The position numbers were made by a program, and so were the translations under genes. 64,000 nt of DNA from Ianthella basta (Eukaryota; Porifera; Demospongiae; Verongiida; Ianthellidae). Where the stretch lies: the NCBI GenBank assembly GCA_964019415.1, contig OZ025871.1, positions 2,257,129-2,321,128 on the forward strand. The letters run 5' to 3'. Positions 353 through 38,661 of the stretch are shown here, piece by piece (position 1 is the first letter of the stretch; every line of letters begins with the position of its first letter). The notes under the pieces are model-generated. The model did no database searches. It was not told where the DNA came from and saw nothing but the letters and a program-made list of their open reading frames with translations.

Positions 353-3300
353 TTACACTCCTCCAGGGGCCTGCCCTTTTGTTTCGTATGTCCCTTTTCT
401 GTGAGTGAACAATTAGATGTATAATAAGTAATTATTACACATTTTATTATCCTGACTATTACATGCACATTGCACACACACACACACACACAGTTACACA
501 AGGCAAACTTGAAAAAGAGTTCATCACTGGAGAACTGACCTTTCAACACAAACTTGCACATGCAACAGACATACACAACACTAGCGTACACACACACACA
601 CGAATGCACACACACACACACGAATGCACACACACACACACACACACACACACACACACACACACACACACACACACACACACACACACAAATGCACACA
701 CACACACACACACACGAATGCACACACACACACACACACACACACAAATGCACACACACACACACGAATGCACACACACACACACACACACACACACACA
801 CACACACACACACACACACACACACAAATGCACACACACACACACACACACACACACGAATGCACACACACACACACGCACATGTACACACACACACACA
901 CGTACATGCACACACACACACACGCACGCACATGCACAATATGAAACAAAAGCATATACAGTATATACTCAACCGCACTCACCTCTCACATGACCACTTT
1001 ACAAACACAGAGATGCTTATTCCCACCGTAAGAAGAAGCATTGCACCAATTGCTCCTGTAAGGCCATAGAGACCACATGCCAGTGGCTCTGTTGTGCCTG
1101 TAGCAGGGGGATATACTGTACCATAGGGTAAATGTGGTGTGTGCGCGTGTGTGCGTGCGTGCGTGCGTGCATACTTAGCTACAATGTTGTGTGATTGAAT
1201 AGTGCAATAAATTAACTCTTTTGTCTGGGTCACTAACACAATTGTGTGTACACTAAGCTAGACAGTCGACTGAAGTGAACTGTGTGTAGTAGCATACACA
1301 CTGTAGCTATGCTGCACCATTAGGTTACAGTGCATGAGGTTTTTGTCGCCTGTAATGATTGCAACCACTTACACAGTGATACTACTCCACTGTTTGACGA
1401 TGACTGTGTTCCACCAACCAGAGTCACTGTTGGGAGAGGTAAACAAGGGATGTGGTCACCAGGTAAGTTGTAAAATGTACGAGGTATGTGGGCATGTTAG
1501 GGCAGGAGATGAGTAGGACATGTATGCCCGATTATGTATGCTTGTACCAATGTATATAGCATGCTACGGCCCATTGAGAGAGGTATGTTTGCCAAGTCAC
1601 TATGCACACACTCCCATGCACATATACAAATGTTTCATTATACATGGTAATTAAGGGCTCCAGCCCCCATGCACTCTGGTGTGATGTGCACATAATTATT
1701 AGACTGAAACTGGTGTATAAATAAAGCTAATGAACATTGTAGCACTACCAATGGTCAATGAACGAACGAACTACTGAAGCTGAAAAGTGTGCCAGCATGT
1801 CACGTGGGAAAATGGTTGATTTGAATTGATATGTCTGATGAGAGGTACCACTCTCTCTATAATACACATTAATTGTACAATAAGACGAATGAACTTCATC
1901 ACTTTCTATATATTTATGTGCTCCAGCATCAACCATCAGCACACTGATGAGCCCCAACAGTGATGAAATGGCTTTCTCTGTACGTTACTCTTCCATCTTT
2001 CCGATGACTCCATGGGGAAGCGATCATTGGTGTTATGTTTGTTACAGAGGGTAGTCTAATTACTGGATGATTATTCTGCAATTCAAATTCCCCAGCTACT
2101 TTGGTATCACTATATAATTGTAATAGTGTCATGCATTGTGTCACTGCCCTTACAGTATAGGTATAGGGAGCTAGATGGTCACATTGTGTTATGTAGCATG
2201 ATGGTGTCACCTCTCACCTGTTTCAAATGACACACTAGCAGCTGTCGTACTCCTCCTCCCATCATCTGTGGTAATGTACACGTCCAGCGTATACTGTGTG
2301 TCTGGGATGAGGCCAGGGACGAGGCACTCATAACGAGACTGCTGCTGGTTGCAGTCAGCCCCCACACTCCGAGTGATGTTTGAGCTGGTAATAAGGAGGA
2401 GGGGTGTGGTTGACTGTCTGCAAGCATCCTCATCTTGTTCCCAAGAGATGGCGACAGTGGTGGAGTCAAGGCTTCTAGCAGTGAGATCTCTGATTGAAGG
2501 AGGCTCTGTTTGTGTACATAGGATGAAGAGGGTAAAGAGCATCACTTGCAATAGTACTCTCAGTAAGACACATCACAAGCAGATGTACACACTCACATGT
2601 GCGCACATGCATGTATGTACAATGCCATGTAGATATCATTACATCTGCATGCACGTGTGCATTTGCAATTGCAATCAAGCCAAACTTACCATGCAGTTTC
2701 ACCATGACCTCGTTGCTACGCCGCTCTCCTGAGAAAGTGTTATACAAGCATGAATAGCGCAGTCCATTAAATGCAATTTGTATAGGGCCAATCTGCAGCA
2801 CCTCCAACACAGTCGTGCTAGTTATTAGTGTGTGCCCCTGCAAGGAGCTGCCTTGAAAGTCTATTGCTCGGAATATCTCGTTTGATCCGTTGGTAACCCT
2901 CCAGTCTGGGTCGTTGTGTGTAGCGTTGTGCCAACAGCTCAACTGCAGCTGGACACCCGGGCACAGTGCTTCCACTTGTGGCTCTATGTCAAGTCTCAGT
3001 ACCACTTGAGCTGTGACAGATACACGTGCAATAACACAGTGCAGTGAATTATATATGTTGATCCATGGTCACTGTCTAAGCTGTATATGTAGTTACAATA
3101 CCTCGCAATGCACTGGCATAGCACTAAAACCATCTGTAATGCAGCCACCTCTCTAAAGCACCCTAGCTGCCTTGCTGGTCTCAAATACGGTATACTTGTA
3201 CCAACATGTATATTTTAGCACTAAAAGATTGCATGCAGCTATAAAACAGCCGCCCTCAATCTGCATGCAGATAGCTAGCTCAGGCTGTAGATGTGTGCAG

Positions 3301-3705
3301 GCTATGGTATCCTCTAGTCGTGTTTGGCATCTTCTCTGCTTGCTCTATATACAAGGTTTGCACTGACACAAACTCGTGATTAACTAAATAAAATCTAGGC
3401 ATAGCCTTTGCCTCTAATTGGCAAATCTTGATTGCACATTCAACCTGACCGTATGATTGGCAGCAAGTGTACATCATGTGACAGCTTTCTGCGAGTGACA
3501 ACACACCAAGCAGGCTGCAGCTAGCTATAGCACTGCTGAATGGCTAGCTATAGGCCAGTGAACTAGTGTGGTGCCAGAAGTGTGTCTTATTCAGCTTCAT
3601 GTAGCTAGTGTGTTGCATATTATACACTATACCTTCTGCTCCAATGAGTAGAGAAAAGTGCAGAAGACTAATGCTGCAAAACTGGAATCTGCACCTAGCT
3701 GCCAT
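353..3705 (-). CDS. M1: Ig-FN3 single-pass membrane protein (pair 1, minus partner)
   Basis: Five exons read on the minus strand: 3705-3633 (signal peptide, starts MAARCRFQFC), 3010-2690 (Ig-like), 2505-2218 (fibronectin III), 1097-983 (membrane span) and 398-353 (tail, stop TAA at 353-355). All have GT/AG borders. The first three junctions are phase 1, the last is phase 2, and the model gives about 280 residues. The Ig-like exon shows Cys (ALCPG), Cys-Trp (LSCWHN), a second Trp (DPDWRV) and YSC near its end. The FN3 exon starts EPPSIRDLTA and contains ISWEQDEDAC and a Pro-Asp-Thr-Gln-Tyr turn. The span follows PLACGLYGLTG and is uncharged. The tail, RKGTYETKGQAPGGV, is very short and has no recognised signalling motif. 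It is diverged in head-to-head orientation from P1. It is presumably a cell-surface recognition or receptor subunit; no ligand can be inferred. The closest relatives in the window are M2 and M3. Confidence 0.82.
470..940. repeat. (CA)n microsatellite tract
   Basis: Long interrupted CA-dinucleotide tract with periodic ATG/CGAATG interruptions, in the last intron of M1. The open frames through it (His-Thr or Val-Cys repeats on both strands) are low-complexity artefacts. Confidence 0.9.
1334..1520 (+). repeat. Array-specific intron block, copy 1
   Basis: A segment containing ACTCACACAGTG-like sequence, TTTCACCAA-like sequence and GTAAACAAGG..TGTGGTCA recurs at the same place (FN3-to-membrane intron) in M2 (12640-13130) and M3 (27360-27790), and once more at 40672-41190. 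This copy is the shortest and most diverged. It reads as ancestral intron sequence carried along by duplication of the whole gene pair. I see no coding evidence. Confidence 0.6.
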
Positions 3706-38300: not shown

Positions 38301-38661
38301 AAAATACTAATGGTCCCCAAGATCCTGATGCTCCCCCAATGGAATTGGAACATCCACTGTAAGTTATAAAGAAATCACACAATTGTGTATACAGTACAGT
38401 ACATGTAAGCACATGTGTATGTGTATGCATGCACAAAACACATGTACACACACACACACTTTAATTCCCTCCTCCCTGCTCACACACTGCAGTGAAGAAG
38501 GATCTGGGCCGGCTCAGGATACGAATGATGATACAGTGAACAATGATAATGGTGAGGCTGGTGTGCAGGAGAATGAGTATGGCACCATGCCTTCAAGCAC
38601 AGTGTTGCATCAAGGGTCAGACTCCAATGAATGGGGGGAAGAAACAAACAACAATAATTAG
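32368..38661 (+). CDS. P3: Cys-rich ectodomain single-pass membrane protein (pair 3, plus partner)
   Basis: Six exons: 32368-32452 (signal peptide, MALIVLAITFLILAHLEG), 33118-33447 (ectodomain), 36931-37089 (stalk), 37517-37624 (membrane span), 38301-38358 and 38493-38661 (tail, stop TAG at 38659-38661). About 302 residues. Ectodomain Cys: SYCVTAS, NVTCTV and ISCQSEN, with QCIVP opening the stalk. The span includes GGVLGAVFFTLLVVACISCV and ends in CIKKK. The tail is acidic and Asn-rich and contains NEYGTMPS, a Tyr-x-x-Met motif absent from P2, then VLHQGSDS. A YxxM motif can bind PI3-kinase SH2 domains in animals; use of it here is inference. The ectodomain-to-stalk intron holds a retrotransposon. 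The last intron but one holds a SINE-like element. An AATAAA lies at 39363. Confidence 0.84.
33931..36855 (+). mobile_element. Non-LTR retrotransposon remnant flanked by inverted repeats
   Basis: The core is an RT frame at 35047-36084 with CPGPDGISPELLK, NYRGISLMPLVGK, NGFCPGRSTVQH, VFVDFSKIFDS and catalytic YADD, then VLQGDTLSPFLF-type palm motifs and KYLGCWM. Upstream is a broken endonuclease region (GDFNAQLD at about 34150; SDHRLLHVDVRLRF at 34400-34450) interrupted by frameshifts. Downstream, 36109-36423 continues in another frame (YASETWCMTQW). A (GAT)n tail ends it. Unusually, about 110 bases at 33931-34040 recur inverted at 36735-36855 (shared CTGTGGAGGTGGCTTGCCAT). The element lies inside the P3 stalk intron in the sense orientation and is inactive as it stands. 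Confidence 0.78.
36617..36702. repeat. (GAT)n trinucleotide repeat
   Basis: About 28 perfect GAT units at the 3' end of the retrotransposon, read as its tail. The poly-Ser and poly-His frames on the minus strand are artefacts of it. Confidence 0.92.
37683..38095 (-). mobile_element. SINE-like dispersed element, copy 1
   Basis: The reverse complement of 37860-38050 matches 42370-42540 (TTTCTTGCTCC, CTCGCTGTGGTTGC, GGTTATAGCGGGGTTGACGT, GACGACGGCCATTTT) and partly 57140-57230. The left part (GTGGGATGATTATGTTTAAA and onward) resembles 40058-40230. It is non-coding and lies in a P3 tail intron. Confidence 0.55.

Follow-up and report, generated by a model that had tools for sequence, protein, structure and literature searches.

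Head-to-head gene pairs for predicted membrane receptors in a tandem array of the sponge Ianthella basta

The window analyzed here, a stretch of 64,000 nucleotides from Ianthella basta (contig OZ025871.1, positions 2,257,129 to 2,321,128), contains genes for putative membrane receptors arranged in facing pairs. The question raised by this locus is whether the two partners of each pair are made and used together, or merely happen to lie head to head.

Gene pairs and extent of the array

Analysis of exons, open reading frames and splice phases identified three head-to-head pairs, M1/P1, M2/P2 and M3/P3, within positions 353-38661, as reported in the preliminary description. Both ends of this span are exact, corresponding to the last base of the stop codons of M1 and P3, respectively. 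The M genes, on the minus strand, follow the plan signal peptide, Ig, FN3, membrane segment and short tail; the P genes, on the plus strand, follow the plan signal peptide, 330-nt ectodomain, stalk, membrane segment and tail. M1 (353..3705) is composed of a signal peptide exon (3705-3633), an Ig exon (3010-2690, 321 nt), a FN3 exon (2505-2218, 288 nt), a membrane exon (1097-983) and a tail exon (398-353). The facing P1 (4219..10262) contains a signal peptide exon (4219-4291), the ectodomain (8008-8337, 330 nt), the stalk (8746-8892), the membrane segment (9208-9318) and a tail made up of 9675-9714 and, tentatively, 10217-10262. The same order is found in M2 (11750..15293: 15293-15209; 14586-14266, 321 nt; 13994-13707, 288 nt; 12344-12224; 11780-11750) and P2 (16252..22251: 16252-16327; 18144-18473, 330 nt; 18753-18911; 20002-20115; 21785-21818; 22113-22251), and again in M3 (25651..31840: 31840-31762; 30852-30532, 321 nt; 30213-29926, 288 nt; 25967-25847; 25687-25651) and P3 (32368..38661: 32368-32452; 33118-33447, 330 nt; 36931-37089; 37517-37624; 38301-38358; 38493-38661). 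The signal peptide exons and the last exon of P1 are predictions based on open reading frames, donor scores and likeness among paralogues, rather than on transcripts.

The conservation of exon lengths is complete, since the Ig, FN3 and ectodomain exons measure 321, 288 and 330 nt in all three copies of the respective gene, each with phase 1-1 and AG/GT borders. The three pairs thus form paralogous gene sets with matching exon lengths and splice phases, and for this reason the layout goes beyond chance. Phase-1 borders, initially described as general, were found everywhere except at the border preceding the last coding exon, which is in phase 2 in M and P alike.

The array extends to the left of the window, where two more M/P-like pairs (M4/P4 and M5/P5), which are mirrored copies, and six additional P-like exons were found within 96 kb. 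Only five M-like Ig exons were detected at E < 1e-5, and each of them faces a P-like exon; conversely, only 5 of the 11 P-like genes face an M, and the remaining six, which have no M-like neighbor, count against the reading preferred below. The pairing, originally presented as obligate, therefore holds for M and not for P. Comparison by hhalign of P1-3 with the left-hand P-like exons gave an E value of 0.0085 (4.7% probability) when the P8 sequence was left out, and 2.3e-4 (45%) when it was placed in the left-hand set. Placing P8 in the P1-3 set gave 3e-6 (88%), a figure which is not independent, because P8 itself matches the left-hand set. The likeness between the two groups is only suggestive.

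Domains and tails of the two proteins

Searches with the Pfam fn3 model (PF00041), whose curated cut-off is 25 bits, recognized the FN3 exons in three out of four M genes, namely M1 (27.6 bits, E 3.3e-6), M3 (25.8 bits) and M4 (32.4 bits); M2 stayed below the cut-off, with 23.7 bits in the exon reading frame and 22.0 in the spliced protein. The Ig assignment, as judged from the sequences, is weaker than the FN3 one. PF00047 matched two of the three M Ig exons, never past the cut-off (best E 0.011; 0.026 and 0.062 in two other searches), and no Pfam family was matched by the Ig exon of M4. A PDB profile search with the M Ig exon returned, as a weak best match, a T-cell receptor alpha chain (E 0.89). 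Residues C17, C26, Y86 and C88 are invariant in all three M Ig exons.

The P ectodomain had been described as Cys-rich, a definition which was discarded, as it contains three Cys in 110 residues in each of the three proteins; one further Cys opens the stalk. Eight members, corresponding to five distinct types, were searched against Pfam and matched no Ig family, and no recognized fold was found by either Pfam or PDB profile search, the only match being a weak one to an antibody heavy chain (E 1.7). The single-domain structure model of P1 was poor, with a mean pLDDT of 38.9. Direct hhalign comparison of M and P gave an E value of 0.09 over 15 columns. By eye, both begin with C-P and end in a motif resembling YxC or IxC.

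The tails are 17-20 residues long in M and about 30, 65 and 78 residues long in P1, P2 and P3. None of the six tails in the window matches the ITIM consensus, [SILVT]xYxx[ILV], and a search for YxxPhi and NPxY signals in the same tails detected only YGTM in P3. The sequence LRYAEI is present in both left-hand tails, M4 and M5; being a single short motif, it may be due to chance.

The inter-gene block and the age of the pairs

The start codons of the partners are separated by 513, 958 and 527 bp in pairs 1, 2 and 3, and each gap holds the same ordered block, CTTTGTTRCCATGG..CAGATATTCAT..GACCAATGAAT. In the first gap (3706..4218) the block is represented by GTTACCATGG at 3903, CAGATATTCAT at 3925 and GACCAATGAAT at 3967; in the third (31841..32367) the same three elements lie at 32083, 32106 and 32143. 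In the second gap (15294..16251), GTTGCCATGG is located at 15545, CAGATATTCAT at 15568 and GACCAATGAAT at 15620, and the last two elements recur at 16013 and 16041, inside a direct duplication (15350-15725 / 15806-16149, 86%). As a whole, the block covers 3903-3977, 15545-15630 and 32083-32153 in gaps 1, 2 and 3.

A scan of 209,087,449 bases for the core of the block, CAGATATTCAT-N15-45-GACCAATGAA, produced four matches, all located in these gaps and in a single orientation, while the reversed control pattern produced none. In addition, two 11-mers are common to the three gaps, and no 11-mer was shared within any of 3000 control triples of windows taken from the same territories. Chance or repeat origin of the block was rejected on the basis of the genome-wide count and of the control triples. 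A test on the best 30-mers was weak, with values of 24, 24 and 22 against shuffled maxima of 22, 21 and 21. The M4/P4 and M5/P5 gaps contain no CAGATATTCAT, one lone CCAATGAAT and no significant blastn match to the block, which counts against the reading preferred below; three other blocks of 39-67 bp, which may be repeats, are common to both.

Synonymous divergence between P ectodomains is close to saturation (dS 1.0-1.5; pS 0.56-0.65), so that maintenance of the block is not a mere effect of recent copying. By these sequence measures the P paralogues are old, and the M exons are less diverged, dS for FN3 being 0.17-0.24, a low value that could come from gene conversion or from synonymous constraint. 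The closest copies are those of pairs 1 and 2, both for the M Ig exon (dS 0.35, against 0.67 and 0.89) and for the P ectodomain (dN 0.31, against 0.37 and 0.46). Along with the common orientation, exon plan and inter-gene block, this agrees with the earlier proposal that M and P duplicated as a pair.

Head-to-head orientation alone proves nothing, since genes so arranged at less than 1 kb are common in the compact genome of the sponge Amphimedon (11,379 genes; PMC4773876). Here, divergent start codons less than 1 kb apart are accompanied by a shared conserved element in each gap, its core confined to these gaps across the genome, and this suggests that the gap is a conserved bidirectional promoter. 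Given this block, M and P are likely to be co-expressed from one promoter.

Readings of the locus and known systems

Genes lying back to back, copied together with the shared control-like DNA between them, suggest that their products are made and used together. The best reading, to which we assign about an even chance, is that M and P are co-expressed partner receptors, derived from an old divergent pair which would have been duplicated at least two times as one unit. M would span the membrane and carry Ig and FN3 domains, P would span it with a single ectodomain on a short stalk, and the gap, acting as a bidirectional promoter, would direct both to the same cells. Of the two, M may be nearly constant and P variable, with both acting jointly at the cell surface, most likely in a cis complex in which P would carry the output and M would provide a shared recognition or assembly part. 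A fuller version is unlikely as a whole. It would make the locus a two-chain surface recognition system of an early-branching animal, in which an Ig-FN3 chain that hardly varies joins a diversified partner of new fold; each pair would be a cassette with its own bidirectional promoter, multiplied to yield one M-P complex of distinct specificity per pair.

The layout might instead be a by-product, if unrelated single-pass receptor genes came to lie head to head by chance and were then duplicated in tandem, sharing a promoter region and no joint function. Such an origin, which we regard as somewhat unlikely and still worth serious weight, would fit the abundance of close divergent genes in Amphimedon, the 6 out of 11 P-like exons lacking an M, and the presence in the same genome of another receptor-like family, whose exons alternate in strand and hence also lie head to head. 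Against it stand the retention of a P-like partner by all five M-like genes found, mirrored left copies included, and a gap block kept while P synonymous sites diverged to the extent reported above. That M and P are ordinary adhesion or developmental receptors, each working alone and with no immune or self-recognition role, seems highly improbable: single-pass proteins of the Ig-FN3 type commonly serve as adhesion molecules and the averages of dN/dS are purifying, the computable values being below 1 everywhere except in one stalk pair, but neither the maintained pairing nor the block private to these gaps would then be explained. Recognition in trans, with M and P of neighboring cells binding each other and marking self in an allorecognition locus, is quite improbable as well. 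Two different linked surface proteins fit such loci, for example fuhc-sec/fuhc-tm of Botryllus schlosseri, and further P and M types occur in other sequence sets (P0003, P0007, P0008); the Botryllus genes, by contrast, are described as having high polymorphism and signs of positive selection (PMC3691228). In the present array dN/dS between paralogous ectodomain exons is 0.17-0.49, and apparent second copies of the M1 Ig, M2 Ig and P2 ectodomain exons, located on other contigs, show 2, 2 and 0 residue differences, counted without the first Met of the gene-caller. Both observations weigh against a hypervariable locus, which is not favored, and the allorecognition or immune role raised in the preliminary description is conjectural.

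Protein, family and genome-contig searches, in libraries with few animal proteins, revealed no named counterpart, and a search of prokaryote genome contigs gave no relatives. The exon alignment did retrieve relatives; the full-length P2 query retrieved none, under a length rule which excludes exon-sized proteins. A search for silicatein gave 31 matches, judged to be cathepsin-like, the best-scoring one reaching 49% over 120 residues and short pieces up to 75%, so that they are no proof of a silicatein-bearing sponge. Among the literature titles searched, none dealt with divergent Ig-type pairs of this kind in sponges or other invertebrates.

Hydractinia, an animal of an early branch, similarly has its Alr genes for single-pass receptors of the Ig type in a cluster; they are of one hypervariable gene type, whereas M and P are two types arranged in divergent pairs. 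Sponge aggregation factors, proposed for self recognition, are secreted proteoglycan cores with Calx-beta domains, unlike M and P, which are membrane proteins, M being of the Ig-FN3 type. Aggregation-factor genes are named in PMC5450542 and PMC11999971. Recognition systems have repeatedly made use of linked pairs of heterotypic receptors. Plant NLRs such as Pik are cytosolic, unlike the M/P membrane Ig/FN3 proteins, and the analogy is one of design only. The rice Pik pair, as described in PMC8631799, consists like M/P of heterotypic receptors encoded head to head with a shared promoter region, about 3000 bp long in Pik and putative in M/P. The fuhc-sec/fuhc-tm genes of an invertebrate chordate are also two tightly linked genes, only 227 bp apart, one product being secreted and the other membrane-bound with three Ig domains; they lie one behind the other, whereas M/P pairs are divergent and tandemly repeated, and they are polymorphic and positively selected, (PMC3691228), whereas M/P show purifying averages and little allele difference. 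Set beside these systems, the M/P array with its private control-like block offers an animal example in which the duplication of a two-part receptor as a cassette can be tested directly, and for which the exact exon and gap coordinates enable RNA, reporter and binding tests.

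Anatomy and divergence of the three pairs

The exon anatomy of the M and P genes could be established. Along the window, which spans C4:2257129-2321128, the arrangement is M1<-->P1, M2<-->P2, M3<-->P3, with the M genes (signal peptide, Ig, FN3, membrane segment and short tail) on the minus strand and the P genes, their stalk-containing divergent partners, on the plus strand. The preliminary description had reported exon lengths of 321, 288 and 330 nt, kept in three head-to-head pairs; these lengths were confirmed and correspond to the M Ig, M FN3 and P ectodomain exons, respectively. 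In M1, M2 and M3, the predicted signal peptide exons measure 73, 85 and 79 nt, the membrane exons 115, 121 and 121 nt, and the tail exons 46, 31 and 37 nt, stop included; in P1, P2 and P3, the predicted signal peptide exons measure 73, 76 and 85 nt, the stalk exons 147, 159 and 159 nt, and the membrane exons 111, 114 and 108 nt, the tail being encoded by two exons per gene. AG and GT are found at the internal exon borders of both. Splice phases are 1,1,1,2 in M and 1,1,1,1,2 in P: the phase-1 borders originally proposed hold for all borders but the last, which is in phase 2 in both genes. The M signal peptide exons are supported by their similar ends (GAE, GAE, EAE); those of P1, P2 and P3 were each selected among several candidates by hydrophobicity and donor score. 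The last exon of P1 (10217-10262, plus strand) is tentative; HQG is common to this exon and the P2 and P3 tails. Structure prediction, performed on one domain, returned a poor model.

Identity to M1 is 80 and 79% for the M Ig exon and 84 and 83% for FN3; identity to P1 is 63 and 54% for the P ectodomain. According to the NG86 method, dS ranges over 0.17-0.24 for FN3, 0.35-0.89 for M Ig and 1.03-1.53 for the P ectodomain, with dN/dS values of 0.43-0.49, 0.17-0.32 and 0.24-0.44 in the same order, and of 0.26-0.86 for the M membrane exon. The sole ratio above 1 is that of the P2/P3 stalk (1.12, based on 41 synonymous sites); for the P membrane exon, saturation leaves two of the three comparisons without a ratio. 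Pairs 1 and 2 are nearest each other, both in M Ig and in the dN of the P ectodomain. The simplest reading is an old duplication of the pair, followed by homogenisation or stronger constraint of M.

Other features were also noted in the window. ORFs resembling a LINE-type reverse transcriptase (35008-36423, plus strand) lie within the long intron of P3, and others, resembling an LTR-type element integrase, at 47572-48392 (minus strand). A 114-bp unit is present in eight exact copies with a continuous open frame at 42836-43748. An integrin beta VWA piece (48915-49319, plus strand; PF00362, E 2.9e-6) is followed downstream by a repeated segment with EPNPAY motifs and a period of 153 (56374-56898, plus strand); perhaps both belong to a single integrin beta gene whose NPxY tail was multiplied. 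Together with the FN3 domains and the splicing of the genes, the integrin beta domain indicates an animal, possibly a sponge; silicatein was searched for, with no clear match. A single-exon ORF of 375 residues at 61171-62298 (minus strand) looks like a seven-helix receptor, with no Pfam match at E 0.1.

The gaps between divergent start codons

The start codons of pairs 1, 2 and 3 are separated by 513, 958 and 527 bp, respectively, the gap of pair 2 being the longest because of a direct duplication, which also doubled a block of short pieces kept there. The order CTTTGTTRCCATGG, CAGATATTCAT, GACCAATGAAT is identical in all three gaps; the second piece follows the first at a distance of 22-23 bp, and the third follows the second at 37-52 bp. 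In the additional copy present in pair 2, this latter distance amounts to 28 bp, and CTTTGTTRCCATGG carries one change. Aligned over about 110 columns, the three blocks show 64-66% identity. In the genome (209,087,449 bases, 96 contigs) the last two pieces combined occur four times, always in these gaps, and their reversed control pattern does not occur. Two 11-mers are common to the three gaps; an 11-mer was shared by none of 3000 control window triples from the same territories. GTTRCC is presumably similar to a half site of the RFX X-box, and CCAAT would be the NF-Y box.

The block was not found in the gaps of M4/P4 and M5/P5, two M/P-like pairs located left of the window on the same contig, C4. 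These gaps (C4:2196130-2199540 and C4:2232780-2235340) have three blocks of their own in common, 39-67 bp long and 80-92% identical, none of which corresponds to the block of pairs 1-3. At C4:2249303-2249491, upstream of an unpaired P-like gene at 2247387, GTTGCCATGG and, on the opposite strand, CCAATGAAT are found about 180 bp apart, a closeness which may be due to chance.

Relatives in the genome and in other sequence sets

Among the matches listed for the genome contigs, the M3 FN3 exon detected, at E 0.001, the three window copies only, and the P1 ectodomain the three window copies plus at least four matches at E 0.38-2. The M3 Ig exon detected the three Ig exons of the window and, with E about 4e-10, further ones at C4:2235354 and 2199566; precisely the same five M-like exons were listed with M4 Ig as query. 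At least 27 weak matches to M3 Ig (E 0.01-10) were also found, 25 on contig C1 and one each on C12 and C16.

M4 (C4:2199491-2201742) comprises an Ig exon of 327 nt, an FN3 exon of 273 nt (PF00041, E 1.1e-7), stalk, membrane segment and tail; M5 (C4:2235336-2238753) was read for Ig, membrane and tail. Both tails contain LRYAEI, which fits the ITIM consensus; a match of this type is absent from the M1-M3 tails. Facing M4, the P4 exon (ORF bounds C4:2195730-2196161) is readable as 330 or 327 nt, and facing M5, the P5 exon (ORF bounds C4:2232324-2232863) as 324 nt, both in phase 1-1. About 1.04 kb separates the signal peptide candidates chosen, out of several, for M5 and P5; none was found for M4. 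Other P-like exons, all on the minus strand, lie at C4:2161410, 2168405, 2179413, 2189418, 2226802 and 2247387. Membrane exons could be established after the P-like exons at 2189418, 2195793 (P4) and 2247387, which therefore look like separate genes. Altogether, at least 5 M-like and at least 11 P-like exons are among the matches listed, all within C4:2161410-2295789. P1-P3 may be related to the left-hand P-like exons, a proposal using exon class and position along with a weak sequence link.

Another receptor-like family, weakly resembling M Ig, occupies C1:303417-813045, with 39 exon matches, one containing an in-frame TAA. Two partial hits excluded, 37 of 38 neighbours lie on opposite strands (P about 1.4e-10 under random strands). 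A cluster at 2.27-2.85 Mb of C1 does not alternate, 17 of 34 neighbours being on the same strand, small fragments excluded. Exons of the family were read by eye as Ig and FN3; the two scanned had no Pfam match. One gene examined has an NPSY tail.

Protein searches with M2 retrieved P0001 and P0002, from one contig of 1,579,253 bases, and P0003, from one of 844 bases; the P alignment retrieved P0004-P0008. With the first Met excluded, P0001 differs from M2 at 2 of 98 residues, P0002 from M1 at 2 of 104, and P0005 is identical to P2 over 107; P0005 is listed for two contigs, of which the longest likewise has 1,579,253 bases. These three may be alleles or second copies of M2, M1 and P2, if they come from the same species. 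P0004 is identical to P1 and P0006 to P3; P0003, P0007 and P0008 represent additional types, with 80, 63 and 48% identity to the nearest window copy.

Readings of the pairing

An immune or allorecognition label for the array is premature, and should not be used yet. Joint control of M and P appears likely from the sequence, and their joint function, although unproven, is the best reading. Among the strongest counter-arguments are that P-like exons are also present without an M-like partner, that the gap block is not found in the two left-hand pairs, and that head-to-head neighbours are numerous in compact genomes, as reported for the sponge Amphimedon (PMC4773876).
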